Shown here piece after piece: positions 103 through 44,882 of a DNA stretch of 44,882 bases. The stretch is taken from positions 1-44,882 of IMG/VR virus record IMGVR_UViG_3300045049_000124. One strand, given 5' to 3'. Below the pieces are notes generated by a model, which searched no databases, had not been told where the DNA came from, and saw nothing but the letters and a program-made list of their open reading frames with translations. Position 1 is the first letter of the stretch. The number at the start of each line of letters is the position of its first letter. The translations under genes were made by a program, and so were the position numbers. The stretch is from a virus.

Positions 103-411
103 ATGAGAAAGCTCCTCATAGTTGGTGCCGTAGCAGCCACACTCGCGCTGGCCGGGTGCAGCGGCCCAAACCTCGTCGACGCCTACCACAAAGTGGCGCG
201 CGCCATGCCCGCCTACTCCAACATGCACGACGACCAACTCGACAAAGCGGGCAAAGCGATCTGCAAAGCATTCGACGCCGACCGCACCACCGCGTGGGAT
301 GCCACCGTGGAAGCCGTATCCGAAAGCAGCGACCAAGCGCAAGCAGGCGTCTTCGTTCGCGCCGCCGTGGCCGCGTACTGCCCCCAATACAAGGGCGACC
401 TGCCGAACTAG
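103..411 (+). CDS. Small secreted lipoprotein (moron)
   Basis: A 102-residue protein. It starts MRKLL, has a hydrophobic signal segment (residues 4-17) and a lipobox LALAGC with the lipidated Cys at residue 19. The mature part is about 84 residues with two further Cys and no family I recognise. The gene stands alone on the plus strand inside the minus-strand late operon, between head-tail connector and tail genes, with its own leaderless promoter and no Shine-Dalgarno. Known phage morons of this type are expressed in lysogens, and some phage lipoproteins block superinfection; that role is inference here. Its TAG stop shares the bases CTAG with the stop of the opposing gene. Confidence 0.85.
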   Translation: MRKLLIVGAVAATLALAGCSGPNLVDAYHKVARAMPAYSNMHDDQLDKAGKAICKAFDADRTTAWDATVEAVSESSDQAQAGVFVRAAVAAYCPQYKGDLPN

Positions 412-6463: not shown

Positions 6464-6664
6464 TTAAACACGAAAAGCCCCCGAAGGGGGCCGTAAATTC
6501 AAGCAAGCCGGACAGTGAACCCTCACAAATCCGACCGGATATGGCGCAAAATGCAAAGTCGCCAACATGGTTACGTTGAGGAACGAATTACGCTCGGACT
6601 CGGGTGAATCGAAGACCTCAACGAATCCCTTGCCGCGGCAGGTGCGGCACTTGCGGTGGAACAT
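6464..6664 (-). CDS. Small zinc-binding protein between terminase and portal
   Basis: A 66-residue protein with CRTCRGKG near its start and HCPAC near its end, two Cys pairs that could hold one zinc ion, as in DnaJ-like CxxCxGxG ribbons. ATG 6664 overlaps the terminase stop as TAATG. The last ten codons lie in the terminator hairpin 6472-6492, so coding and terminator overlap. Confidence 0.75.
   Translation of the reverse strand: MFHRKCRTCRGKGFVEVFDSPESERNSFLNVTMLATLHFAPYPVGFVRVHCPACLNLRPPSGAFRV
6472..6492 (-). terminator. Terminator upstream of the portal gene
   Basis: Minus strand GCCCCC, loop TTC, GGGGGC, then TTTTCGTGTTTAA. It lies at the end of the zinc-protein gene and before the portal gene, so part of the transcription from terL would stop before the structural genes unless antiterminated or re-initiated. 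Confidence 0.75.
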
Positions 6665-8163
6665 TACCAGCCTTCGCCGGACTCGGAACCACGCGGATAA
6701 GCGAACGCCTGCCGCATAAACGACACCGGACGCGGCACCCGAGGCACCACCAAACCATTCCCAGTCGACACTGTTTCCAGATCATCCGGGACAGGAATCG
6801 TCACACCGAACTCGGCCGGCGGCCTGACAGCACGATCCGGAGCCAAAGCGCTAACAGCCTGCATGAACGCCATAGCCACATCGTCATGCCCCGCCCGCTC
6901 AGGCACAGCAATACGCATCGTCCCTTGAGGCGTGTACTCCACCTCAAGCGAACGCAACTGCTTCAACAGTTCAGGATCACGCGGCAACACCAAGCGCTTG
7001 GTTTGCAGCAGGCCCTTGATCATGCCGAAACCCGACTGCTTACGGCGCGCATCCGTCACAACCGGGGCCACCGCAGACGACCCGTGCCGTTGACGCATCT
7101 TCTCGTCAAGCATCGTGGTCGGATACTGGCCCACACCGTTCGTCTCGGCCGCCAACACCGGCATGTGATAGAACCCGGCCACGCGCACGATTTCCTCAAT
7201 GAAATCGCTGTACGGCCACTTATGCCCCGACACATACCACGGCACAAAAAACGGCAACCGGTCACCGAGAAGTTTCCGGTTCAACCCGTAATCCTCAACC
7301 GGGGCCACTAAAGCAAGAACGTTCGCGTCGTTCAAACCCCAGTCAACGCCACCCGCCGCCGGATAACGACCATCCAGAAACCATTCCAGGTCTTCCGGCT
7401 TCGTCATCACATAGTTGCAGGCAGCGTCTTCTAGCTCACGCTCCGTGAAATACGACCCGGAGTCGTCACCGAACTGGCCGTTGTACTCCCGGTTGAAATA
7501 ATCATCACCATTGTTCTGCCGAATCCGCTCCAACAGGGCCTTGTCCCACTTGGGGGAATCAGACGACTTCCACTGCCACGACTCAATGAAATCATCCGGA
7601 GTCGACTTACCGATGTTCCAATGCTTCCGGAACCAATGATCCGGGCCACCCCACGGCGAACTCGTGGCAACAATCCGGGAACCAGGCCGAGCACCAATCG
7701 ACGGCTCCGAACCCTCCCAAATCTCATTCGGAATCCACCCCGCCTCATCCATAATCAGCAGGTCAACCGAATTACCACGAATCTGCTTCGTAGACGCCGG
7801 AACCGAACGAATCACAGACCCATTCGAAAACGACAGAATGGATTTGCCCTCATCCATCACCGACCCCGCAAGGAGCTCGGATCTCGTCGCAAGGAACGCG
7901 CAATCCGCCAGCAGCTTCTTCGCCGCATCCTCACCAGCCGAAACAACCAGAACCAGAATGTTCCGCCGAGTCGCAGCCTCGAACAGTGCCAGAGTCGCAA
8001 GAGTGGTCGACTTGCCCACCTGACGACCAGCCGTCACAAACCGGTAGCGCGCCTTCGACCGGGCAAACTCCAACTGGAACGGCCACAACGGCTGCCCCAA
8101 CACCTGCTCAGCAAACGCACCAGGATCAGTAGCCGGATCAAAAGACACAGCCACCCCATTCAC
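6664..8163 (-). CDS. terL: Terminase large subunit
   Basis: A 499-residue packaging motor from GTG 8163. ATPase motifs: Walker A GRQVGKST (46-53) and Walker B DLLIMDEAG (134-142). The nuclease domain starts with GVDWGLNDANVLAL and includes AAETNGVGQYP. An open frame continues upstream to 8367 but would overlap the divergent XRE gene and its promoter and encodes an Arg-rich non-conserved stretch, so I reject it. The small subunit gene is 1.7 kb upstream, split off by the plus-strand cassette. Confidence 0.95.
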   Translation of the reverse strand: MNGVAVSFDPATDPGAFAEQVLGQPLWPFQLEFARSKARYRFVTAGRQVGKSTTLATLALFEAATRRNILVLVVSAGEDAAKKLLADCAFLATRSELLAGSVMDEGKSILSFSNGSVIRSVPASTKQIRGNSVDLLIMDEAGWIPNEIWEGSEPSIGARPGSRIVATSSPWGGPDHWFRKHWNIGKSTPDDFIESWQWKSSDSPKWDKALLERIRQNNGDDYFNREYNGQFGDDSGSYFTERELEDAACNYVMTKPEDLEWFLDGRYPAAGGVDWGLNDANVLALVAPVEDYGLNRKLLGDRLPFFVPWYVSGHKWPYSDFIEEIVRVAGFYHMPVLAAETNGVGQYPTTMLDEKMRQRHGSSAVAPVVTDARRKQSGFGMIKGLLQTKRLVLPRDPELLKQLRSLEVEYTPQGTMRIAVPERAGHDDVAMAFMQAVSALAPDRAVRPPAEFGVTIPVPDDLETVSTGNGLVVPRVPRPVSFMRQAFAYPRGSESGEGW

Positions 8164-8166
8164 TAG

Positions 8167-8195
8167 TTGCTCGTCACTACGCTGCCTGGTAAACT
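8167..8195 (+). promoter_or_regulatory. Leaderless promoter of the XRE cassette
   Basis: -35 TTGCTC (8167-8172), 17-base spacer, -10 TAAACT (8190-8195), then six bases to the ATG at 8202. The expected start of transcription falls on the A of ATG. The divergent terL start lies only 4 bases upstream of the -35, so RNA polymerase or a repressor bound here could also affect terL. Confidence 0.75.
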
Positions 8196-8201
8196 TGGCG
8201 C

Positions 8202-8501
8202 ATGGAAGAGGCGCAAATCGGCGAAGCCGTCCGGCGACACCGCGAGGCCGCAATGCAAAGCCAGGCCGACCTTGCCAAGGCCATGCGCGAACGCGGTCCC
8301 AAGTGGTCACAGGCCACGGTCTGGGCGGTCGAAAAGGGCGACCGCCCCCTTCGGCACTCCGAAGCAATCGAGCTGGCCGACCTCATCGGCTTGCCGCTCG
8401 GCTTTCCCGCGGACCCCTACGCATCAGCGGTAAGGCGCGGTGTTCAACTGTCCGTATCCGTGCTGACCCGGGTCGTGGAGGAAATGGGAAATGATCACTG
8501 A
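8202..8501 (+). CDS. XRE-family helix-turn-helix regulator 1
   Basis: A 99-residue protein with an N-terminal HTH (about 6-60): QADLAKAMRERGPKWSQATVWAVEKGDRPL, followed by AIELADLIGLPL as in Cro/CI-type domains. The C-terminal third is short and may dimerise. First gene of a four-gene plus-strand operon placed between terS and terL, read from a leaderless promoter. It could be a second repressor of the phage or of late transcription; the target is not known. Confidence 0.85.
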   Translation: MEEAQIGEAVRRHREAAMQSQADLAKAMRERGPKWSQATVWAVEKGDRPLRHSEAIELADLIGLPLGFPADPYASAVRRGVQLSVSVLTRVVEEMGNDH

Positions 8502-8781
8502 CGCCGAAATCGGTGCCCGCGTTCTCGCCCGTCGAGAGCAAGCGGGAATCGGTCAGAACGAATTGGCGCGACGGCTCGGTCGACCGTTCCACCAGCAGAC
8601 CATCGCAAGGCTTGAGCGCGGGGAGCGAAAGATCGGTGTCGGCGAAGCATTGCTTATCGCCCATGCCCTAGATTGTTCGCTCGATGAACTCCTCCACGAC
8701 CAGGAGGTGCGCCCCCTGACCGCCCGCGAAATCACAGAGCGAATCGCGGACCTCTCGAAGCTGCTTCTAGAAGTTGTCTGA
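8491..8781 (+). CDS. XRE-family helix-turn-helix regulator 2
   Basis: A 96-residue protein whose HTH (about 5-60) reads GARVLARREQAGIGQNELARRLG, then QQTIARLERGERKIGVGEALLIAHALDCSLDELL, a standard XRE fold. It overlaps regulator 1 by 11 bases. The C-terminal helix ITERIADLSKLLLEVV may serve dimerisation. Two different XRE proteins in one operon suggest a paired or hetero-dimeric control unit. Confidence 0.85.
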   Translation: MITDAEIGARVLARREQAGIGQNELARRLGRPFHQQTIARLERGERKIGVGEALLIAHALDCSLDELLHDQEVRPLTAREITERIADLSKLLLEVV

Positions 8782-8793
8782 ACGGAGTTTCCA

Positions 8794-9027
8794 ATGTTCA
8801 CTGAAGCGCCCTGGTATGGCGACAACGTGGTGCGGGCCGTCACCTGGTTGCAGAACAACCCCGGAGCCCACACCGGACCCGAAGTGGCGGCCGGGGCCAA
8901 GATCCCGCCGCGCAACGTGCACATGTACCTCCGCCGCGCCCTGAAATACGGCTACGTCGAAAACCCCTCACGGGGAAAGTACGTCGCCACACCAGGCGAA
9001 CCAGAAGTGCGAGTCAACCGTGGATAG
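8794..9027 (+). CDS. Winged-helix DNA-binding protein
   Basis: A 77-residue protein: VVRAVTWLQNNPGAHTGPEVAAGAKIPPRNVHMYLRRALKYGYVENPSRGKYVAT. The helix, turn, recognition helix and the wing ending in G(K)YVAT match small MarR/ArsR-like winged helices. ATG 8794 has GGAGTTTCC upstream. Third gene of the XRE cassette; it overlaps the next gene by 8 bases. Confidence 0.75.
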   Translation: MFTEAPWYGDNVVRAVTWLQNNPGAHTGPEVAAGAKIPPRNVHMYLRRALKYGYVENPSRGKYVATPGEPEVRVNRG

Positions 9028-9244
9028 TGCAGGACTCCTCGCGGATATCCGAACCTGCGCGTTGTGCGCCAGTCAGCCGGCCTTCTACGTATGGTCCCGA
9101 ACCTGGCGGCTCCACCACAACCAACAGCTTACGCAATACGTCGTATCTGGCGCATGCGTCGACCACCTGGAAGAAATCGAAGACCGGCACGGGCTCGAAT
9201 ACAACGACTACACCCGGTGGCCCTCATTCGACTTCGAGGGCTAG
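9020..9244 (+). CDS. Small Cys-pair protein of the XRE cassette
   Basis: A 74-residue protein from GTG 9020 with IRTCALCASQPAFYVW and later SGACVDHLEEIEDRHG, a possible CxxC...CxxH zinc site. The C-terminus is acidic and aromatic (YNDYTRWPSFDFEG). Last gene of the cassette; its TAG stop shares CTAG with the convergent gene 9241..9375. Function not recognised. Confidence 0.7.
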   Translation: MDSAGLLADIRTCALCASQPAFYVWSRTWRLHHNQQLTQYVVSGACVDHLEEIEDRHGLEYNDYTRWPSFDFEG

Positions 9245-9375
9245 GCGCGGCGGAGGAGCCGACGCCACCACGAGTGCTTGACCGGACGATAACCCAGATA
9301 GCCCTTTGCGTTGATGTACGCCTTCGTGTAGCCGACCGTCACAACCTTCGGTTCCGGCTTCTCGTCGTCAACCAT
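9241..9375 (-). CDS. Small basic-tailed protein, unknown
   Basis: 44 residues (MVDDEKPEPKVVTVGYTKAY), ending WWRRLLRRA, an amphipathic membrane-binding-like tail. AGGGGA lies 7 bases before the start (ATG 9375, or GTG 9378). Stop shared in CTAG with the plus-strand gene. A real small gene by its ribosome site and tight packing; function unknown. Confidence 0.6.
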   Translation of the reverse strand: MVDDEKPEPKVVTVGYTKAYINAKGYLGYRPVKHSWWRRLLRRA

Positions 9376-9389
9376 CACTGAATCCCCTC

Positions 9390-9578
9390 TTACTTACCCA
9401 CAACAATCAAAGCCGCCATGATCGCAGCCACACCACACACGAAAACAAACGGCAAGAGAAACAGCGCAAAACCCCACAAGCCGACCGCCACACTCATTAC
9501 GGCCCCGACAATGAGGACCGCTATGGCCGCGATCATGAGAAGAAACAGCAAGCCAAAGCACAAACGCTCAATGATCAT
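9390..9578 (-). CDS. Small two-helix membrane protein under a possible SOS promoter
   Basis: A 62-residue, almost wholly hydrophobic protein with two predicted membrane helices (about 8-30 and 34-58) and few charges, holin-like in size and shape. GGGGAGACAA precedes ATG 9578. The nearest upstream signal is the LexA-like box at 9744-9759, leaving a 170-base structured leader. It could be a second holin, a toxin or an exclusion protein; none is proved. Confidence 0.7.
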   Translation of the reverse strand: MIIERLCFGLLFLLMIAAIAVLIVGAVMSVAVGLWGFALFLLPFVFVCGVAAIMAALIVVGK

Positions 9579-9895
9579 TTGTCTCCCCTTGTACCCCGGA
9601 AATTGCTAGTGCGGCGGTCTCAGCCCGCGTTATCCGACAGTTCTGTACCCCAAAGCGGGGAGGGCGGGTCCCAACAAAGCGTGACCTCGTTTAAGACTCG
9701 GGACCGCCAGCCCGAACATCCCCTCACGCCCATCGCGTAGCGATCGAACAAAAATTCGAATCTAAGCCCTCAAACCAACCAACCCACCCGAACACCCATA
9801 CCCAACACGAAAACGCGTCAGAATCCCGTTCAAAGGCGAATCAGAGGCACATCCGAGCCACACCCACCACCCAAGAACCGGAATTCAGAAACGGC
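9579..9895. other. Gene-free 317-base stretch with hairpins and a LexA-like box
   Basis: No convincing ORF on either strand. It holds the LexA-like box (9744-9759), CCCC-AAAG-CGGGG (about 9650-9662), and a longer stem joining GGGTCCC near 9667 with GGGACC near 9710. The part nearest terS is unusually rich in CCA/ACC repeats. Likely the terS 3' region plus a promoter and leader for the 9578 gene. Confidence 0.5.
9744..9759 (-). promoter_or_regulatory. LexA-like (SOS) operator 2
   Basis: Minus strand TCGAAT-TTTT-GTTCGA. The known actinobacterial LexA box is TCGAAC-N4-GTTCGA, so one of twelve arm bases differs. Its arms are identical to those of the box at 30661. A TAGATT -10-like hexamer abuts it (9759-9764, minus). 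The gene it would control is the membrane protein at 9390..9578. Confidence 0.55.
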
Positions 9896-10441
9896 TCACA
9901 CATTTTTCGGGGTATGGCAGCCCGTACCTGTGTTTGAAAAGGGGGGTCCCGGGGTGGTGTCAGGTCGAAGGTTGTTCTCTGCTGCCGCCCTGGCCTGGGT
10001 GAGTAGTGTGGCTGCGTCTGCTTGTCTTGCCCCTGCAATGTCTTTACCTAGGCGTGCTGCACTGAGGGGGTCTAGGCCTAGGCGTTGTGCGTAGCCTTGG
10101 GCTGTGGTCATCCACTTGCGCAACAGTTCGAGGGGGCTGGTCTTCCCACGGTCACTGTCTGCTGCCTGCTGTATGTCCATACCATCCACCCACTCGGACA
10201 GCAGGTCCACCTTGGCTTGGGCTATAGCCCACTGGTGCACGGACCGGGAGAACCGGGGTGCTGCAAGGTAGTCCAGGCTGGGGTCGGCCAGTAGATCCTG
10301 GATGAGCTGTGCTGCTACGGGTTCCACTTTCGCCGGCGACCAGATGCCGTGCTTCACGGACAACGTGTTCCCGGGTTGGAACGGGGGACGCTGCCCCTCA
10401 AACTCAGGTATCCACTCGTTGCCGGTCTTGGGGTCGATCAT
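9896..10441 (-). CDS. terS: Terminase small subunit
   Basis: A 181-residue protein with the actinophage TerS signature: MIDPKTGNEWIPEFEGQRPP, then FQPGNTLSVKHGIWSP, a helical middle (WAIAQAKVDLLSEW) and RLGLDPLSAARLGKDIA near the end. It recognises phage DNA and loads TerL. Its ATG overlaps the upstream 24-residue peptide stop. It is separated from terL by a plus-strand regulator cassette, an unusual arrangement. Confidence 0.85.
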   Translation of the reverse strand: MIDPKTGNEWIPEFEGQRPPFQPGNTLSVKHGIWSPAKVEPVAAQLIQDLLADPSLDYLAAPRFSRSVHQWAIAQAKVDLLSEWVDGMDIQQAADSDRGKTSPLELLRKWMTTAQGYAQRLGLDPLSAARLGKDIAGARQADAATLLTQARAAAENNLRPDTTPGPPFSNTGTGCHTPKNV

Positions 10442-27545: not shown

Positions 27546-27770
27546 TTATGCGACTCTGCGTCGCCCCCTAGAACGAGGCGACTGCACCCAAGGATCGGGT
27601 TCCGCGGTCAACTTCTCATCGATCAGAGAAAGCTTGAACCGCCATTCGGATCCGAGCTTTGTCCCCGGGATGGCACCGGCCTTAGCCAGCTCGCGCACCG
27701 TGTACTCTGACTTCCCCAAGTGCGTTGACACTTCCGGGACACCGACCCACGGTTCACGTTCGATGTTCAC
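27546..27770 (-). CDS. xis: Excisionase-like / MerR-type HTH protein
   Basis: 74 residues from GTG 27770: WVGVPEVSTHLGKSEYTVRE, LAKAGAIPGTKLGSEWRFKL, the helix-turn-helix plus wing of HTH_17/Xis proteins, ending with an Arg-rich tail (SPRSRGRRRVA). It may direct prophage excision or bind the control region. Second gene of the leftward early operon. Confidence 0.75.
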   Translation of the reverse strand: MNIEREPWVGVPEVSTHLGKSEYTVRELAKAGAIPGTKLGSEWRFKLSLIDEKLTAEPDPWVQSPRSRGRRRVA

Positions 27771-27895
27771 AGCAACCCCTCCTGAGTAAGCACGAATTCG
27801 AGCTTCCAGGGGAGGACGCCGAGAGCAGAGGCGCAGGCTACGATCTTGTCTTGGACGGACTCTGTGTTGGTCCGCTGCGCTTCGTTGTGCTCCAT
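27767..27895 (-). CDS. 42-residue leader protein of the early operon
   Basis: MEHNEAQRTNTESVQDKIVA then CASALGVLPWKLEFVLTQEG. Its ATG 27895 sits 6 bases after a -10 TAGAGT, so the mRNA is leaderless. The stop overlaps the excisionase start (GTGA). Could be a Cro-like or antirepressor factor; too short to tell. Confidence 0.65.
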   Translation of the reverse strand: MEHNEAQRTNTESVQDKIVACASALGVLPWKLEFVLTQEGLL

Positions 27896-27930
27896 GTAGG
27901 TACTCTACCTACCTTTATCGGTAGATGCAA
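27896..27930 (-). promoter_or_regulatory. Early leftward promoter with overlapping operators
   Basis: Minus strand -35 TTGCAT (27930-27925), 17 bases, -10 TAGAGT (27907-27902), start on ATG 27895. GTAGGTA-CTC-TACCTAC (27896-27912) is a perfect 7-bp palindrome over the -10, and CTACC-TTTATC-GGTAG (27909-27924) fills the spacer. A repressor bound there would shut the lytic genes. Confidence 0.75.
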
Positions 27931-28034
27931 CTACCACTGCGAACTTTTTTCGCAACCCGTGCCAGCACTGAATTTGCTATACGCGCGCGTACGGAAAAAC
28001 TGCGGATCAGAAGAAATCCCACCTTGGGGGGATT

Positions 28035-28062
28035 TTGTGCAGGTACCTATATGGGGTAGCGT
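28035..28062 (+). promoter_or_regulatory. Rightward leaderless promoter of the repressor-type gene
   Basis: -35 TTGTGC (28035-28040), 16-base spacer, -10 TAGCGT (28057-28062), then 7 bases to GTG 28070. The spacer holds GGTACC and TACCTATATGGG, a 12-mer repeated at 29143-29154 before integrase. Confidence 0.5.
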
Positions 28063-28069
28063 CGCAGCC

Positions 28070-28330
28070 GTGGCGAACAGACCCCTAAGCGACTTTGACC
28101 GTGCGGCCTCGGCGTGGATTCGCGCCGCCGCAGCGGCACAAAAGCTTGGTCAGTATGAACTGGCGGAACGTGCCGGCATCCATATCAACACGTTCCGCCC
28201 TTACTGGCGCGGCGAACGCCGTATTGCCCTAGGCGACTTCGAGCTGATTGTGAACGCGCTTGGTGTCGACCCCGAGGATGCGATGAAGGAGATTAAGAGC
28301 ATCCGCCTCTCCGGCAATTACTCGTCCTAG
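28070..28330 (+). CDS. HTH regulator (repressor or Cro type)
   Basis: 86 residues from GTG 28070: MANRPLSDFDRAASAWIRAA, then KLGQYELAERAGIHINTFRP YWRGERRIALGDFELIVNAL, a single XRE-type HTH (about 22-75). The longer open frame from 27725 has no start signal. It is divergent from the early operon, the usual place of a phage repressor or Cro, and its GTG lies just after a -10. Confidence 0.8.
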   Translation: MANRPLSDFDRAASAWIRAAAAAQKLGQYELAERAGIHINTFRPYWRGERRIALGDFELIVNALGVDPEDAMKEIKSIRLSGNYSS

Positions 28331-28414: not shown

Positions 28415-28574
28415 TTTCGTACCCCTCTGATTCGTGCGGCCTCTGGTGTGAGGTTAGGGGGAACCTATGACACGGGAGACGAGTCGGTCTATCGCGTGGA
28501 ACGCACATCCTCACCCATAAAGGTGGAATTTCTACCGTCAAAGGGTTGTGGTGGCCCTTGAAGTGGGGGACACT

Positions 28575-28595
28575 TTGGAACACCGAACGTTCCAA
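28575..28595 (+). promoter_or_regulatory. Inverted repeat before the second regulator gene
   Basis: TTGGAAC, 7 bases, GTTCCAA. It ends just upstream of AAGGAGG of the 28606 gene, so it could be an operator for autoregulation or an RNA stem affecting the ribosome site. Confidence 0.45.
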
Positions 28596-28605
28596 GGAGG
28601 CGGTA

Positions 28606-28962
28606 ATGAGCGCGTGGGAGGAGTATGCACACCGGATCACCGGTGGGGCGTCTCAACGTGAGGTTGGTGAGAGGATCGGCCACTCGCATGCGACTGCGCG
28701 CCGGTGGATGAGTGATGGTGCAACACCCCAACAGGTGATCGCTTTGGCGCTCGCGTACGACGCGGACGTGTTAGAAGCGTTGGCGGCAGCCGGGTGGCTC
28801 GATCCGGCAGAGATTGAGAACGCAAACCTGAGTAGAACTCTGCGTCGCATGTCGTCGGTCGCGCTGACAAAGGAGCTGTACCGTCGGGCACTCGTGAAGC
28901 AGGGGCGTCAGCACGGAGACCATTTCGCGGACGCCCGGGAGCCGAACGAAGAGATTAACTAA
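28606..28962 (+). CDS. Immunity repressor-like HTH protein
   Basis: 118 residues. HTH at about 13-45: GASQREVGERIGHSHATARR WMSDGATPQQVIALALAYDA; a helical C-terminal part LARTLRR-like (NLSRTLRRMSSVALTKELYR) may dimerise. AAGGAGG lies 5 bases before ATG 28606. It resembles small actinobacterial prophage repressors and stands between the first regulator and attP/integrase. Confidence 0.75.
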   Translation: MSAWEEYAHRITGGASQREVGERIGHSHATARRWMSDGATPQQVIALALAYDADVLEALAAAGWLDPAEIENANLSRTLRRMSSVALTKELYRRALVKQGRQHGDHFADAREPNEEIN

Positions 28963-29038: not shown

Positions 29039-29066
29039 GAGCCGGCTGCGGGACTCGAACCCGCTG
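29039..29066. other. attP: attP core matching a tRNA 3' end
   Basis: The minus strand reads GCGGGTTCGAGTCCCGC AGCCGGC followed by T, the T arm and acceptor 3' strand of a tRNA whose 5' part is absent here. The acceptor would start GCCGGCT, a form known for some tRNA-Thr genes, though I cannot fix the type. It lies 160 bases before integrase. Integration into that host tRNA would restore its 3' end. Confidence 0.8.
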
Positions 29067-29135
29067 GTGGCGAATGTCGTATCCGCCCACTTCCCCTTGA
29101 AATCACTGGGAAGTAGCCAAACCGAACCCCATTCG

Positions 29136-29154: not shown

Positions 29155-29223
29155 TGGATGTGGCACCTTATTAGGGTTTTCTGGGTCGCTTTTGTCGGCA
29201 TGCCGACTGTCAGGGAGGAAACA

Positions 29224-30375
29224 ATGGCGAGCGTCAAACCGTACAAGAACCCATCGGGCGACATCGTTTGGCGGGTGCAATTCAGGGTTGGGGGCCGGGG
29301 TAAGCAAGCCACCTTCGGCACGGCCGCTAAGGCCCAGGCCTTCGGGCGATTGGTCGATGTGGCAGGTGGCGAGGAAGCCCTACTCCAATTGACAGGGGAA
29401 GCGGGCGGAGGAGAGTCACCCACTTTCGAAGAGTGGACGCGGACCTTCTTGGACCCTTCGAGCGGCCTGCTCACAGGCGTCGACGCACGTACGCGCGATG
29501 ATTACAGGCGTATAGCCGAGCAGCACCTCTTTCCACAACTGGGCCACTTGCCGGTGGACTTGATCGACAAGCGCGCCGTGGGGCGCTGGGTTGCGTGGCA
29601 GGAGGCCCAGTCACCCACCCGCTACCCGAACCGCCTGGTGTCCGCAAAAACAGTAAAGAACCATCACGGTGTGCTGTCGTCTATCCTTCGGGCGGCAATG
29701 GAGTCGGGGTTACGGCCAGACAATCCCGCTTTCCGCGCCCGCCTCACGAGGGGCATGAAGGTTCAGGAACCGGTGTTCCTGTCCAAGGATGAGTTTCAGC
29801 GCGTCTACGAGGCAATCAAGCCGCGCTGGCAGCCCCTTGTTGCTTTTCTGGTCGGGTCGCAACTCCGATGGTCGGAGGCTGCCGCGCTCGACTGGACCGA
29901 CATCAACCGTGATACGTTGCCTCCTACGGTGAGGGTGACTAAGGCGTGGAAGCGTCGCAAGGACGGCCCCGAAGTAATGGGGCCACCGAAGTCTCCGAAG
30001 TCGCGTCGTACGGTGTCGCTGTGGCCGGAACTTGTGGCGCAGCTCGGACTTCCCGGAAAGGGATTCGTGTTTCAAAACCCGGATGGTGGGCGCATCCCCA
30101 CCAGAACCTTCGCAAACGCATGGGCCTTGGCCAAACGGGATTCGGGGATATCGCAGAATCCACGCGTGCACGACCTGCGCCACACGGGCGCATCCTGGCT
30201 GATCGCGGACGGCGTGCCGTTGCCGTTTATTCAGGCCAGGTTGGGACATGAGTCGATCACGACAACAGTTGGCACCTACGGCCACTTGCTGCCGGATGCT
30301 CACACGCAGATGGCGGATTCGTTGAGGGGCACCCTGTCCGGGGTTGTCCCACTCAGAAAGGAACTCGAAAAATGA
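29224..30375 (+). CDS. int: Tyrosine integrase
   Basis: 383 residues. N-terminal arm-binding part (MASVKPYKNPSGDIVWRVQF), core-binding helical part, then the catalytic domain: Arg in SQLRWSEAAALDW, HDLRHTGASWL (HxxR), LGHESITTTVGTYGHLL (His and nucleophile Tyr). It recombines attP with attB. GGAGG lies 5 bases before ATG 29224; the frame is open to 29158 but lacks a ribosome site. Confidence 0.95.
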   Translation: MASVKPYKNPSGDIVWRVQFRVGGRGKQATFGTAAKAQAFGRLVDVAGGEEALLQLTGEAGGGESPTFEEWTRTFLDPSSGLLTGVDARTRDDYRRIAEQHLFPQLGHLPVDLIDKRAVGRWVAWQEAQSPTRYPNRLVSAKTVKNHHGVLSSILRAAMESGLRPDNPAFRARLTRGMKVQEPVFLSKDEFQRVYEAIKPRWQPLVAFLVGSQLRWSEAAALDWTDINRDTLPPTVRVTKAWKRRKDGPEVMGPPKSPKSRRTVSLWPELVAQLGLPGKGFVFQNPDGGRIPTRTFANAWALAKRDSGISQNPRVHDLRHTGASWLIADGVPLPFIQARLGHESITTTVGTYGHLLPDAHTQMADSLRGTLSGVVPLRKELEK

Positions 30376-30653
30376 AGGACAATCTGCCCCCCTTCGCGCC
30401 CACGGGCGTGAACGCCGTTCAGTGGGCACCGTCTGGCGTAGCTCTCGATGGGGTACCAGCCACCATGATGCGACTATTGGCCAGCCGGGAAGGGAAGACG
30501 TACGGCTACGGTTACGGCACGGGATGGGGGATCGTATTCGCGCACGCTCAGGGCGAGGTGGAAGTCCTGCCGACGCAATGGGTCACCCGATGGGAAGACG
30601 ATTCCATTACGGTTACCGATGAAAAGCCCTCGGAGGCGGCGGTCTTCCGCTAG
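30372..30653 (+). CDS. Protein coupled to integrase, unknown
   Basis: 93 residues (MKDNLPPFAPTGVNAVQWAP), then YGYGYGTGWGIVFAHAQGEV, Tyr/Gly-rich, ending EKPSEAAVFR. The ATG overlaps the integrase stop (ATGA). Function unknown; likely produced with integrase. Confidence 0.7.
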   Translation: MKDNLPPFAPTGVNAVQWAPSGVALDGVPATMMRLLASREGKTYGYGYGTGWGIVFAHAQGEVEVLPTQWVTRWEDDSITVTDEKPSEAAVFR

Positions 30654-30660
30654 GCCCTGT

Positions 30661-30676
30661 TCGAATGTATGTTCGA
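30661..30676 (+). promoter_or_regulatory. LexA-like (SOS) operator 1 on a leaderless promoter
   Basis: TCGAAT-GTAT-GTTCGA: one mismatch to the actinobacterial LexA box TCGAAC-N4-GTTCGA, and the spacer fits RNRY. The -10 TATGTT (30668-30673) lies inside it, and the ATG at 30680 comes 6 bases later. LexA bound here would block the promoter; DNA damage would open it. Confidence 0.65.
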
Positions 30677-30679
30677 TTC

Positions 30680-30841
30680 ATGGGTAACACGCGCACAAAC
30701 GATGACGGGTTCAAAGGCGAATACCCCAAACCACTCAACTGGGACCGCATCGAACAGGAACTAAACGACGAAAAAAGCCCCCGGCCTGCCGAAGCAAGCC
30801 GGGGGCTCAAATCATGCGACGACCACAGGGCCGTCAAGTAG
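30680..30841 (+). CDS. 53-residue candidate SOS-induced protein
   Basis: MGNTRTNDDGFKGEYPKPLN then WDRIEQELNDEKSPRPAEAS, a short polar protein with one likely helix. Its last 30 bases overlap the end of the opposing tail gene and its 3' half contains the late terminator hairpin. A leaderless start under a LexA-like box suggests a role in prophage induction (an antirepressor, for example), which is inference. The hairpin-coded half may be a by-product. Confidence 0.5.
   Translation: MGNTRTNDDGFKGEYPKPLNWDRIEQELNDEKSPRPAEASRGLKSCDDHRAVK
30771..30807 (-). terminator. Terminator of the late operon
   Basis: Minus strand AGCCCCCGGCTTGC, loop TTCG, GCAGGCCGGGGGCT (one mismatch), then TTTTTTCGTC. 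Directly after the last tail gene. The strongest terminator in the window. Confidence 0.9.
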
Positions 30842-34113: not shown

Positions 34114-34440
34114 TTACTTGTTCAAAATCATGGTGCCGAGCGTGATCAACCCCAGGACGGTGGCCGGGATACCCGCCCACACCATCCACTTCTGAGTCAG
34201 CTCAGACTTCGTATACCGCTGAGAAACACGGCTGTCCTTCAACACGGCAACGTCAGTGACCACGGCGCTAATGTCTTCGCGGAACTTCTCGTGGTCCTTC
34301 TCGTTTTGCTGGTTGATCGCAGCCTGCGCCAGGTTGTTATTCTCAACCGACGTTTGCAACGCCGACACGGACCCCTTCAACTCCCCTAGGAGGAAGATAA
34401 CGGTGTCCTGTGGTTTCATCGGGGCTCCGTCTTCCGCCAC
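34114..34440 (-). CDS. Holin-associated membrane protein (XhlA-like)
   Basis: 108 residues: an N-terminal coiled coil (LLGELKGSVSALQTSVENNN, NQQNEKDHEKFREDISAVVT) and one C-terminal membrane helix (WMVWAGIPATVLGLITLGTM). This shape is known for XhlA-type lysis accessory proteins. Next to lysin and holin. Confidence 0.75.
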   Translation of the reverse strand: MAEDGAPMKPQDTVIFLLGELKGSVSALQTSVENNNLAQAAINQQNEKDHEKFREDISAVVTDVAVLKDSRVSQRYTKSELTQKWMVWAGIPATVLGLITLGTMILNK

Positions 34441-35402
34441 TACGACGCCTTCAAAATGAGGCCGCTGAGCGCGTCCACCAGGTCTTGCTTCGTCAACGTC
34501 CCCTGCGGAAGTTGCGCGACAATCTCAGCCGCCAACGCCTTGTAATCAACCTGCGGTGCGGACAGTGCAGCAACCGCGGCCTTCGTGTCCGCAGCCGTCT
34601 TGGCCAGGGGCTTGCCGCCGTCCGGCATCGACGGTCCGCCGACTAGGACCGCGTTCTCAATGTTCTTCAGCTTGCCCATGACCGATTTAGGGTCATAGTC
34701 CTTGCCGGGGGTGTCGGAGGTGACCGACGGGCCGCCTTTGTACAGGTACCCCCGAAGGTTCATCACCGCATCGTAGAGGTCTGCCTGCTGCTGGTCAGTG
34801 AGGGCCATGAAAGCCCCTCCAATCGTTGACGCGCTCAACTCCGCCACGGAGGACGCCTGAGCTTTGTTCCGGTCAATAGGGGTGGACGTGTACTGCCACA
34901 ATGTCCAAGTCGGCCACCACTTAATCGGCGGCGGGGTCGGGTTGTAATACGCAATCCACAACGCGGAACCCTGCGCCACCACCGGGGACCAATCCATGCC
35001 GTCCATCAAGGAACGGTTCAAATAAGTGCCCGGGCAGGGGAGTCCGTGAGACATGACCCGGGCGTTGAACGCGGCAGCCTGCGCAGGCCCCCACGCAATA
35101 GTCCCCGTCGAGGGCTCCGACTCGCAGTCCAACCACAACGAATCGCCGGGCTGGTAGGACAGGTTGGACACGAAATAGTCGGCGCAAACAGTGGGGTCAA
35201 TGTTGCCGTTGAAGAAGTAATGGCCCACATGCTTACCGGCGTTGCGGGCATTCGCCACCTGGTTGCGGTACTGCGATCCCACGGCCAAGCCAATGTTCGC
35301 CCGGGAGGCATTCACGATCACGAACGACAATTCCGCGGAAGGGGTGTAGTTCCCCTGCGCGTAAGAAACGTCAACGCCTTCAAGCATCAGGCACGCACCC
35401 AT
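34440..35402 (-). CDS. lysA: Endolysin, GH25 muramidase
   Basis: 320 residues. GH25 start LEGVDVSYAQGNYTP, YFFNGNIDP, catalytic LWLDCESE (DxE) and ALWIAYYNPTPPPIKWWPTW with a WQYTS near residue 185. A linker (DQQQADLYDAVMNLRGYLY) and a short C-terminal part (VDYKALAAEIVAQLPQGTLT) follow, possibly wall binding. I keep ATG 35402, which has GAGG four bases upstream; ATG 35387 would also fit (TGATG). Cuts peptidoglycan glycan strands. Confidence 0.92.
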   Translation of the reverse strand: MGACLMLEGVDVSYAQGNYTPSAELSFVIVNASRANIGLAVGSQYRNQVANARNAGKHVGHYFFNGNIDPTVCADYFVSNLSYQPGDSLWLDCESEPSTGTIAWGPAQAAAFNARVMSHGLPCPGTYLNRSLMDGMDWSPVVAQGSALWIAYYNPTPPPIKWWPTWTLWQYTSTPIDRNKAQASSVAELSASTIGGAFMALTDQQQADLYDAVMNLRGYLYKGGPSVTSDTPGKDYDPKSVMGKLKNIENAVLVGGPSMPDGGKPLAKTAADTKAAVAALSAPQVDYKALAAEIVAQLPQGTLTKQDLVDALSGLILKAS

Positions 35403-39104: not shown

Positions 39105-39974
39105 CTACTTCCAGGCAGGAGTGGCAGTGACAGTCAGCAAAGACCCCGAGTTATACGTAGACGCCGTGAACGCCCACGAATTCGCGCCAGGATCAAACGC
39201 CGACCAACCACGAGACGTGATATACCCGGCACGAGTTGATTGACCGTTCGCCAACGCGGTGCGCTTATCCATATCCACCAGCAAGAACTCCCCCGAACCC
39301 AAAGACAGGTTCGACGAGAACACCAACGCTTGCGTGGTTGTGGAGCTGGTGTGAGTGATGATCGGACCAGTGCATGGCCCGTCTATCCGCAACACCACCG
39401 GCCCCGCCTCGTTCCCCGGGTTGGTGAGGTTGATCTGCCCCGACACCACCGTTGAGGTGATCGTGAACGGCACGGTGAACGGGACGGTGAGACCGCCCGT
39501 CGTGGACGGCAACGCCGTCTGCTGCGTCAGCGTAGACCCGAGCTTCCGCGGGTCCACCGCCACCATCTGGATCTGCACATCCGCTATCTGATTCGTGCGG
39601 CGGGTGTGCACCACCTCATCGGAACGACGCACCGTCATAGACCGGGTAAACCCGGTCTCAGCCACCGTCAACGTTGCCGCATTGAAGTCGGCCGCCGCGT
39701 ACACCTGGTCCAGGGCGGCCGTCAAAGCCGGCGCGGAAGGCGCGTACAAAGTGACGCCGAGGGTGACGTAGCGGGGCTGCCCGTAAGACAACCCGGCCCA
39801 ACCGCCCTGCTGGCGTGGTTTCTGCACAACCTGAATGGTCGGCCGGACACCACCCCAACCAGTGAACGACTTCAACACCCACCGGACACCGGTGCCGTCC
39901 AGATTGTTGAACACCACAGTCGATGACGTGGACGCCAAAGTCACTTGTGTGGTTGAAGTGGTGAGCGCGGTCAT
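39105..39974 (-). CDS. Distal tail protein (Dit)
   Basis: 289 residues. N-terminal block VRWVLKSFTGWGGVRPTIQV VQKPRQQGGWAGLSYGQPRY, then HTRRTNQIADVQIQMVAVDP and the galectin-like C-terminal half. This is the Sipho_tail family, the ring joining tail tube and hub. It overlaps the tape measure end by four bases. Confidence 0.88.
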   Translation of the reverse strand: MTALTTSTTQVTLASTSSTVVFNNLDGTGVRWVLKSFTGWGGVRPTIQVVQKPRQQGGWAGLSYGQPRYVTLGVTLYAPSAPALTAALDQVYAAADFNAATLTVAETGFTRSMTVRRSDEVVHTRRTNQIADVQIQMVAVDPRKLGSTLTQQTALPSTTGGLTVPFTVPFTITSTVVSGQINLTNPGNEAGPVVLRIDGPCTGPIITHTSSTTTQALVFSSNLSLGSGEFLLVDMDKRTALANGQSTRAGYITSRGWSAFDPGANSWAFTASTYNSGSLLTVTATPAWK

Positions 39975-42388
39975 GCGGCCCCCAAACTGTTCAACCTCAT
40001 AGCCACCGATGACGTGAGCTGCGACGGATCAGCGGCCGTCACATACCACTTGTGCGTGACGTAATTCACGACCTGCTGGCCAGCACTTCGCCCCGCCATG
40101 CGGTTAGCGAGATCCGCGACCTGCAACCGGTTCGCCCCACCATTGATCGCCTTCAACAGCATGCGGTTATTCGACGCCTGCCCGAACCTGTTGGAGATAA
40201 CCTCCTCCAACGGGGCCAGCATCGACGGGACAGAGTCGATGTGCGAGGAACCACCACCGGGAACGGTCATACCGTAAGCAGCGTGGATTGTTCCACCGTC
40301 ACGGTGACCGTCGCCCAAACCAAACCCAACATTTGGGTTCGTCGCGTTCGTAGTGATCGTGTTTACGCGGATCGTGTACACCTTCTGCAATGCCTCGTAC
40401 TGGGCCTGCAGCGCGGCGGCATCGGCTTTCGCCTGTGGGATACCGGACGTGTTGAATGCTGTAGTCACATCCTTCGGCACCAACCCGTATTGGGACGCCA
40501 ACCGCTCTGCCGCATCCCGGGACATACCCGCCGCGACCGCCGCATTCACGAACTGGTCATGGACCGACTGCATCTGCCCCGACAGTTGGTCCGCCGACGC
40601 CCCAGCCGCGGCCTGAGCCGCAACCAAAGCAATACCGGACGACGCAATACCATCCAACGCCTTCTGGTTGTCGCGGCCCTTCTGCGTGTTCTGATCGAGC
40701 GTCGCACCATTCTGGGTCAACGCCGCAGACATGTCCGCAATGGCCTGGTTGTATTGGATGCTCGCGGACGACGCATCCAAGTTGACCTGGCCCAGACCCT
40801 TCAACTTCTGCGACAACTTATCCGTCGCATCCGCAGCCTTATCAGTGGCCGCCTTCATCGCCCCCAGCAAATCAATGCTCGTGGAAGTCTTCGTGTTGGC
40901 CCCGTCGACAGCGTCCGCGTTTTCCTGCTGAATGATCTTCGCCGCATCCAACGCCGAATTCTGATCCTTCAACGCCTGGCGAACATTCACCAACGCACCG
41001 GCCTGATCATTCTGCTTACCCGTCAGTGCCCCGGTAGAACCCGAGGTAGACCCCAGACTCTTATCGACCTCTGATAGTCGGTCGTTGACCTTCTTCAACG
41101 CGTCAGCGTTACCCACCGCCGCCTCGGTCAGGGTGGAGGTGGAGATCCCCAGCTCGTGGGCGGCCTTGATCGCCCCCGAATCGTGCAGGTTCTTCACCGC
41201 AGTCAGGCGAACGTTCTCCTTGATCTGGTTATTGTCCTGCTGCAACGCCTGAGCGTAATCGTTCGCCGCCTGCGAGTTGTCCTGCATAGCACTCACGGCC
41301 ACAGCGAACGCCGCCGCCAAAGCGGAAACACCAGCAGTAACCCAACCGATGGGCCCCTGAGCGATCTGCGTCGCAATACCAACCGCGCCCATCGCCGCAG
41401 CGACACGCTGCAAAATCGGCGCAACCGCAGTCCACAACTTGAACGCCGCAAACCCAGCCGCAGCCGCAGAACCAACCTCCAACAACACCGGAGTCGGAAT
41501 CGCGTTGATCGTGTCACCCAACAGCTTGAGCGCCTCAACAACAATGCTTCCCAGTGGGGCAAACGCCACAATCAAGTGCATTGCCGCCGACGCCAACGAC
41601 CCCAGCATTTGCGCAACCTGCGGCAACTTCTGAATCGCATAATTCACAAACTGGTTCAGGCCGCCGCCCTGCACCCACGAATTGAACCCCTGGGCCAGAG
41701 ACCGCACATACTGTGCACCCTGAACAAACAGAGGGTTCATAATGTGGAACGCGCTAATGGTGGCGTTCAGCACCGACAAACCGGTCTGCCCGAGAATGTT
41801 CGAGAACGTCGCAATCTGACGGTTCAAATCCGGCAGCGCCCGGTTGATCATCTGAACAGCGACACCGAAATACTGCAACATCGTATTCGCCGCAGTGCTA
41901 CCGAGAGAGTCCAGGGCACCCTTGAGCTGGCCAAGACCAGACTTGTACTGGTCCCCCACAATCGTGGCGTCTTTGATCGCCTTGGTAATGCCGATGATCG
42001 CAAGAACACCAGCCGCACCCATACCCGCAAGCGCTCCGGCAACACCGACCGCGTACGCGGCCAACGGTGCCAGCAGAGGAATGAGCGCGACAATCGCGGC
42101 GGCAATCAACTGCCACCGCTGCAAACCCTGGCCGTTGGCGTTGTTCACCTGCTGCTGCGACACCGCCAGGCGGCGGTTCGACCCATCCAAACGGTTCGCG
42201 GCGGCGTCAACAGCCGCAAGTTTGGTGATCGCACCGTTGTCGTCAACATCTACGGTGATGTTCGGGTCAACGGAGCCGAGCTTGCGGGCCGCAGCTTCCG
42301 CAGCCGCCAGCTTCGCCATGAAATCGTGGTCGTCAAGCGTCAGCTTCGCGTTGATCGAGCCCGCCGTCGTCGGCCCCTCCGACACCAT
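39971..42388 (-). CDS. Tape measure protein
   Basis: 805 residues, the longest gene. Long helical parts with Ala/Gln (ANRLDGSNRRLAVSQQQVNN), a hydrophobic block (IAAAIVALIPLLAPLAAYAV, GVLAIIGITKAI, about 95-145), and coiled coils (NDRLSEVDKSLGSTSGSTGA). The length sets the tail, roughly 120 nm at 1.5 Angstrom per residue. ATG 42388 lies inside the end of the frameshifted chaperone gene. No lysozyme or peptidase domain is seen. Confidence 0.93.
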   Translation of the reverse strand: MVSEGPTTAGSINAKLTLDDHDFMAKLAAAEAAARKLGSVDPNITVDVDDNGAITKLAAVDAAANRLDGSNRRLAVSQQQVNNANGQGLQRWQLIAAAIVALIPLLAPLAAYAVGVAGALAGMGAAGVLAIIGITKAIKDATIVGDQYKSGLGQLKGALDSLGSTAANTMLQYFGVAVQMINRALPDLNRQIATFSNILGQTGLSVLNATISAFHIMNPLFVQGAQYVRSLAQGFNSWVQGGGLNQFVNYAIQKLPQVAQMLGSLASAAMHLIVAFAPLGSIVVEALKLLGDTINAIPTPVLLEVGSAAAAGFAAFKLWTAVAPILQRVAAAMGAVGIATQIAQGPIGWVTAGVSALAAAFAVAVSAMQDNSQAANDYAQALQQDNNQIKENVRLTAVKNLHDSGAIKAAHELGISTSTLTEAAVGNADALKKVNDRLSEVDKSLGSTSGSTGALTGKQNDQAGALVNVRQALKDQNSALDAAKIIQQENADAVDGANTKTSTSIDLLGAMKAATDKAADATDKLSQKLKGLGQVNLDASSASIQYNQAIADMSAALTQNGATLDQNTQKGRDNQKALDGIASSGIALVAAQAAAGASADQLSGQMQSVHDQFVNAAVAAGMSRDAAERLASQYGLVPKDVTTAFNTSGIPQAKADAAALQAQYEALQKVYTIRVNTITTNATNPNVGFGLGDGHRDGGTIHAAYGMTVPGGGSSHIDSVPSMLAPLEEVISNRFGQASNNRMLLKAINGGANRLQVADLANRMAGRSAGQQVVNYVTHKWYVTAADPSQLTSSVAMRLNSLGAA

Positions 42389-44372: not shown

Positions 44373-44710
44373 AGCAACTTTCTGAACTCATCGCCCAAGA
44401 ACCGGATCACATCAGGTGCCTTGGACACCATCGGCAATTCGAGGTAAAGGGCATTACCGGTGTTGTGGCGGTACGACAACTCGTAATGCTGCCTGCGCGC
44501 GTAAGGGCCGGGAATGAAGATCTCCACTCCGTCGTCAATCGGCCGGACCTCCTCCGACCCGACCAAATGCCCCGTCTCAACAGGGGTCTGCCGGGCAACC
44601 TCCGGGCGCACAATCGCTTCCATCGCCAACAAGGCAGCCGGTTTCAACCCCGCATGCACCCGTTCCGCAATCTGGTCGAAGTTCAAGTTGAACTCCCACG
44701 ACATACCCAT
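44369..44710 (-). CDS. HK97 gp10-like tail completion protein
   Basis: 113 residues (MGMSWEFNLNFDQIAERVHA), with GLKPAALLAMEAIVRPEVAR, QTPVETGHLVGS and VEIFIPGPYARRQHYELSYR, the P-V-x-T-G-x-L pattern and RYAxxxxY block of HK97 gp10 proteins. I prefer ATG 44710 to the TTG at 44722. First tail gene after the lipoprotein moron. Confidence 0.85.
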   Translation of the reverse strand: MGMSWEFNLNFDQIAERVHAGLKPAALLAMEAIVRPEVARQTPVETGHLVGSEEVRPIDDGVEIFIPGPYARRQHYELSYRHNTGNALYLELPMVSKAPDVIRFLGDEFRKLL

Positions 44711-44882
44711 GAGGCCCCCCAAAAATACGTGGACACACGGATTAACGCGTCACATCAGGGCGCTACATTTGTGGTATGAGAAAGCTCCTCATAGTTGGTG
44801 CCGTAGCAGCCACACTCGCGCTGGCCGGGTGCAGCGGCCCAAACCTCGTCGACGCCTACCACAAAGTGGCGCGCGCCATGCC
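44673..44882. repeat. Right copy of terminal direct repeat
   Basis: Matches bases 1-209 with three differences (see the left copy). One extra C lies in the C-run at about 44715-44720. Confidence 0.9.
44776..44882 (+). CDS. 5' part of the lipoprotein gene (cut by window edge)
   Basis: Identical to the first codons of 103..411, including the full signal peptide and lipobox. It is the same gene seen again through the circular overlap. Confidence 0.85.
   Translation, partial: MRKLLIVGAVAATLALAGCSGPNLVDAYHKVARAM

Follow-up and report, generated by a model that had tools for sequence, protein, structure and literature searches.

A LexA-like operator over the putative -10 of a predicted leaderless small gene in a temperate phage

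The locus and its question

A small ORF that starts a few bases behind a palindrome of the SOS type, a short way downstream of a phage integrase gene, raises two questions: whether host LexA controls the gene, and whether its product triggers prophage induction. The first-pass annotation of this locus proposed that the gene is off in a lysogen and on after DNA damage, and that it might be a small actinophage counterpart of the tum gene of phage 186. The DNA considered here, called the window, comprises all 44,882 nt of IMG/VR record IMGVR_UViG_3300045049_000124. As set out below, LexA control is well supported, and a role in induction is one of two about equally likely functions of the product. 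The annotation identified the site correctly and was hasty in assigning a function.

The phage genome

The window is a temperate phage of the siphovirus type (Table 1). Its structural and lysis genes, portal, capsid and holin among them, run leftward, and a rightward cassette encodes two HTH repressor-type proteins and a tyrosine integrase. The second of these HTH proteins is the C-terminal part of an ORF at 27725-28330, its start having been chosen by inspection. Neither the window nor its relatives encode an S24 self-cleaving repressor domain (PF00717); thus, RecA-driven repressor self-cleavage is unavailable from any recognised gene. The attP-like core has partial matches, with 2-3 mismatches, to Microbacteriaceae genomes, and the two that were scanned are tRNA-Thr(TGT). 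We infer that the host belongs to this family. Because the contig ends share a near-identical direct repeat of ~210 bases with few differences (1-209 and 44673-44882, an offset of 44,672), the genome is probably a complete circle of about 44.67 kb, despite the record's linear class.

Table 1. Features of the window discussed in the text
Feature	Position	Strand or direction	Remarks
Terminase	6664-8367	leftward	
LexA-like box 2, TCGAATTTTTGTTCGA	9744..9759	-	between TerS-like gene and terminase operon
Second Cro/C1-type HTH protein	28071..28330	+	phrog_4583, 3.8e-7; PF13443, 8.7e-5
HTH repressor-type protein, candidate immunity repressor	28546..28962	+	phrog_5301, E = 2.8e-13
attP-like core, tRNA-Thr 3' end (minus-strand sense)	29042..29072	+	between HTH gene and integrase
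Tyrosine integrase	29158..30375	+	phrog_1, E = 5.8e-66
93-codon ORF	30372..30653	+	overlaps integrase stop; between integrase and box 1
-35 position, TTCCGC	30645..30650	+	weak, 2/6 vs TTGACA; 17 bp from -10
LexA (SOS) box 1, TCGAATGTATGTTCGA	30661..30676	+	one mismatch to actinobacterial consensus
Putative -10, TATGTT	30668..30673	+	within box 1; six bases (CGATTC) before ATG 30680
53-codon ORF, predicted leaderless	30680..30841	+	conserved core T4-L28 (TRTxxDGFKGEYPxPLxWxRIxxEL)
Intrinsic terminator of convergent late operon	30775..30808	-	15-pair stem + T6; folding z = -6.5
Endolysin	34440-35402	leftward	
Tape measure	39971-42388	leftward	

Box 1 and its putative promoter

Box 1 reads TCGAAT-GTAT-GTTCGA and departs from TCGAAC-N4-GTTCGA at a single arm base. 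The 44.9 kb window has just two sites that match this consensus with no more than one mismatch, the other being box 2, which the first-pass annotation overlooked. The chance level, taken from 300 dinucleotide shuffles of the window, is a mean of 0.18 such boxes per window, with one or more in 16% of shuffles and at least two in 1%. The pattern TCGAAY-N4-RTTCGA, which is narrower, has a shuffle mean of 0.017, compared with two observed. Thus, the LexA-like operator originally reported, with its one arm mismatch, is indeed present and is rare by this measure.

The reported overlap of this operator with a -10 sequence, followed after six bases by the ATG, is likewise confirmed. There are just 8 TANNNT-N6-ATG arrangements on the two strands of the window, this one among them, and the ORF, which starts 1.6 kb downstream of the tRNA-Thr-type attP, has no Shine-Dalgarno sequence or ribosome-binding site upstream, a geometry that fits a leaderless start. 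As to the leaderless promoter, the in-box -10 geometry is matched family-wide in the Microbacteriaceae (discussed later), but the -35 is weak and a sigma-70 scan recognised no promoter at box 1. The ORF has the 53 codons first described, but it does not directly adjoin the integrase gene, since a 93-codon ORF intervenes. The latter matches no known family in PHROGs, Pfam or NCBIfam and is not homologous to the gene in the equivalent position of L003, the relative described below.

Conservation in related phages

L003 lies on IMG/VR contig 3300037418_004169 (G002), a phage whose terminase is 85% and whose integrase is 56% identical to that of the window. Here the homologous ORF occupies the equivalent position after the integrase and is preceded by TCGAACGTATATTCGATTCATG, with the box conserved as TCGAACGTATATTCGA. 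Across box and start, 21 of 24 bases are identical in the two phages, whereas the DNA upstream of box 1 is unconserved and the intervening gene is unrelated. The arm mismatch is on the left in the window (T for C) and on the right in G002 (A for G); each therefore keeps an imperfect palindrome with one perfect half-site. G002 has exactly two boxes of the LexA type, both at places equivalent to those in the window. The first-pass annotation had staked its reading on conservation of box and ORF in relatives, and since both are kept here the reading is not refuted on this count.

Its suggestion that the same box would precede homologous ORFs is borne out by G002 but not by a more distant homolog, L015. 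In this prophage-like region of a Schumannella MAG the protein core is present, the box is absent, and the ORF apparently starts behind an ordinary ribosome-binding site. Thus, the protein does not always come with the box. The closest integrase relative (L004/G006) has neither box and no such ORF.

The window also contains a gene for a secreted lipoprotein (103-411, plus strand) with a leaderless-type -10 of its own, TACATT-N6-ATG. In G002 the homologous gene immediately follows the LexA-box ORF, which overlaps it by ATGA, and an acyltransferase-type gene comes next; in the window the lipoprotein gene stands separately.

The 53-codon ORF and its product

The ORF family has three known members: the window, L003 (67% identity across residues 3-29) and L015 (48% identity; core TRTNADGFKGEYP). 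An in-frame ATG inside box 1, at 30665, gives 58 codons, and only the 30680 start is common to the window and its relative. Identity in frame 0 is 17/24, versus 13 and 12 for the two remaining frames, and the changed codons comprise 5 synonymous and 7 non-synonymous ones, modest evidence for coding that is weak on its own. Together with the shared start codon, and with an L015 frame that is homologous despite a different upstream region, the frame-0 identity nevertheless argues that the ORF is real.

Conservation is limited to about 28 residues. The strong terminator of the convergent late operon falls within the last third of the ORF, which is unconserved, and the function of the product probably resides in its first 30 or so residues. 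The protein is acidic (pI 5.7, with a conserved N-terminal part of pI 4.5; pI 4.1 for the L003 homolog). It has no match in PHROGs, Pfam or NCBIfam, and a tblastn search of phages and plasmids with the core yielded nothing relevant; profile searches of IMG/VR, GTDB contigs and 300 Microbacteriaceae genomes returned L003 and L015 only. The predicted structure, a single helix at residues 21-30, is of low confidence (pLDDT 69, pTM 0.27) and gives no reliable fold. A likeness of NDDGFKGEYP to a stretch of arginyl-tRNA synthetase (L180), identified by eye, was taken as coincidence.

An exact 14-mer, GTTCAAAGGCGAAT, occurs twice in the genome, near both boxes: within the small ORF (30709-30722), where its codons are unusually conserved across all three homologs, and 69 bp from box 2 (9828-9841). 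As a candidate second DNA element it was rejected: at the box-2 place it is not kept in G002 or L187, a phage with a related terminase, and it is a common 14-mer in IMG/VR. Its recurrence near both boxes is probably chance.

The same motif on SOS genes of the Microbacteriaceae

The Schumannella genome that is the source of L015 (G001) contains seven occurrences of TCGAAY-N4-RTTCGA. They lie upstream of recA, imuA, imuB, a 13E12-type gene, a photolyase-type radical SAM gene and two small genes (names assigned by eye); the recA box is, like box 1, of the one-mismatch kind, and a 16-bp sequence identical to box 1 lies upstream of one of the small, SOS-type genes. The lexA gene of this organism (PF01726, E = 4e-22) is preceded by tandem boxes, CCGAACATACATTCGA among them, that include the half-site of box 1. 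As regards membership in the LexA (SOS) regulon, then, the window gene has the box, conservation of that box upstream of a homolog, and the same motif on SOS genes of the likely host family.

A box-NNN-ATG layout with the GTAT core is found in 16 of 400 Microbacteriaceae genomes, compared with 0 for a reversed-pattern control. Most of these sites directly start small ORFs, several of them 75-181 codons long. Among 18 distinct promoters that were compared, 12 carry an upstream TTGnnn spaced exactly 17 bp from the in-box TATRTT. Because these promoters share it, the leaderless geometry with the -10 inside the box has independent support. In the Microbacteriaceae genomes L045-L060 the small unannotated proteins behind this layout include a 91-codon type, MTRPRPIRLDHDTW, in seven genomes, a 103-codon type, MPDLSN, and a 106-codon type; for the two types searched, Pfam and NCBIfam gave nothing above cut-off. 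A box with a 103-codon gene in G004 was considered as a phage example and not counted, since L053 carries the gene in a chromosomal setting; in G004, too, it is probably chromosomal and lies at the edge of a prophage. In another phage, G003 (L028:1366-1381), a LexA box, TCGAACACACGTTCGA, closely precedes a gene of 81 codons for an excisionase-like HTH protein, and the opposite edge of this prophage has a box-led 106-codon gene.

Box 2 at the terminase gap

The G002 counterpart of box 2, TCGAATATTTGTTCGA, is also located in the terminase gap. No promoter was recognised at box 2. Two other phages with related terminases (L187, 84%; L188, 70%) conserve the flanks of the gap and lack the box. The box is therefore neither part of a conserved terminase-gap element nor explained by whatever other function the gap has. 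Beyond G002, its pattern occurs in IMG/VR in L039 and L040 alone, and both were judged unrelated, the former resembling a leviviral RNA genome and the latter being an AT-rich phage. L040 (contig 3300006875_000235) does have three perfect LexA-type boxes (6897, 6969 and 7021), all within a single intergenic region ahead of its terminase. The gap itself (window 8300-10000, minus strand; L187, L188 and L191) contains strongly conserved CCCCCC, GGAAAAATGTG and GGATGTGCCTCTG, likely a cos/pac site. If box 2 works, the terminase operon shares the SOS signal.

Proposed regulation and alternative explanations

We infer from these observations that LexA binds box 1 and that the gene is SOS-induced, and likewise what its protein may do. 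Host LexA would bind box 1 and so cover the -10 of the leaderless promoter, keeping the small gene silent in an undamaged lysogen. After DNA damage, RecA-stimulated self-cleavage of LexA would free the promoter, and a transcript beginning at or next to the ATG would encode the acidic product, some 53 residues long. A LexA operator over the -10 of a predicted leaderless gene is well supported by the rarity of the box, its conservation in a relative, the geometry, the SOS promoters of the Microbacteriaceae and the LexA motif of Streptomyces venezuelae, and we regard this regulatory scheme, off in the lysogen and on after damage, as likely. A chance box before a spurious ORF is most improbable. 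The ORF is small, its -35 is weak and its last third lies in a terminator, and one-mismatch boxes do appear in some shuffles; yet the box, the start codon and a 25-residue core are kept in a diverged relative, and the second box recurs at the homologous place. It is also unlikely that a regulator encoded by the phage, rather than LexA, uses the two palindromes as its operators. Although both window sites share TCGAAT-NTNT-GTTCGAT, which goes a little beyond what the LexA consensus requires, the motif equals that of the SOS boxes preceding recA, lexA and imuA/imuB in one genome of the Microbacteriaceae, and both sites lie away from the HTH genes, the place expected for the operator of an autoregulated repressor.

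What the product does under LexA control is less clear-cut. It may help prophage induction by inactivating a repressor that does not cleave itself, the HTH protein at 28071 or that at 28546. That it is such an antirepressor, of the Tum/GfoA kind, is a tentative proposal by analogy, which stays plausible because the protein is acidic and the phage has no S24 repressor; no homology to a known antirepressor was found in PHROGs, Pfam or NCBIfam, and the repressor candidates have no self-cleaving domain. About as likely, and by our estimate a shade ahead while still short of an even chance, is that the product plays an accessory part in the SOS response, either directed at the host or as a lysogenic-conversion moron, and does not trigger induction. 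The lipoprotein and acyltransferase-type genes that follow in G002 are an accessory-gene setting, Microbacteriaceae put the same promoter layout before other small uncharacterised proteins, and L004 manages without the gene. On the other hand, the integrase neighbourhood and the companion terminase box, common to both phages, suggest a part in the life cycle of the phage. A further reading, that the product is an SOS-induced excisionase (recombination directionality factor), would accord with the neighbouring integrase and with the boxed excisionase-like gene of G003. Excisionases, however, are typically basic and bind DNA, and this reading is improbable for an acidic protein that belongs to no HTH family and has, in a low-confidence model, one short helix; for such a protein next to an integrase the antirepressor role may suit better.

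Box 2 would place a packaging or structural transcript under the same SOS signal, and it predicts late transcription dependent on SOS. The full picture, an actinophage group without a self-cleaving repressor that is wired to host LexA twice, through an induction-triggering leaderless micro-gene and through an SOS-dependent packaging/structural operon with its box in the TerS-TerL gap, is rather doubtful as a whole.

Significance and comparison with known systems

DNA-damage sensing by temperate Microbacteriaceae phages appears little studied, and the literature searched contained no paper joining LexA with Microbacterium prophages. The operator-gene pair is short, specific and testable, and the two related phages with their mirror-image mismatches provide a natural comparison. 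In addition, the leaderless SOS layout of the Microbacteriaceae (box, in-box TATRTT, 3 nt, ATG, and TTGnnn at 17 bp) could uncover further SOS genes. Genes with this layout, such as those of the 91- and 103-codon types, have box, spacing and ATG geometry identical to those of the window gene; they differ in that they encode unrelated proteins, are mostly chromosomal and have better -35 elements.

In S. venezuelae, the LexA motif obtained by ChIP-seq and SPR is tCGAAC-N4-GNNCGa, and the validated recA box is TCGAACATCCATTC (PMC9380542). The latter contains the same G-to-A base change as the phage box, tolerated by LexA. LexA-bound prophage genes in this organism are among those most induced by mitomycin C, rising 190- to 526-fold (PMC9380542). 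Like the window gene, they are actinobacterial prophage genes with LexA boxes; in contrast, the boxes of those listed lie 120-180 bp upstream and do not overlap a leaderless start, and the genes are other ones. In GIL01 of Bacillus thuringiensis, LexA and the phage protein gp7 act as the repressor (PMC4551915). Host LexA acting directly on phage promoters sets lysogeny or induction there, as it putatively does in the window, whose phage, unlike GIL01, has HTH repressor candidates of its own and a tyrosine integrase.

Tum of coliphage 186, AntC of N15, and GfoA/GftA of the Gifsy prophages are LexA-controlled antirepressors (PMC3121763), a way round the lack of a repressor that cleaves itself. 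The window gene resembles theirs: it is small, phage-borne and equipped with a box for host LexA, it lies apart from the repressor genes, and the repressor candidates of its phage lack a self-cleaving domain. It differs in that no sequence similarity to them was found, in its putatively leaderless start with the operator over the -10, and in the second box at the terminase operon. The window gene thus joins a known class of LexA-wired prophage genes, within which its leaderless design is unusual and its companion box unexpected.
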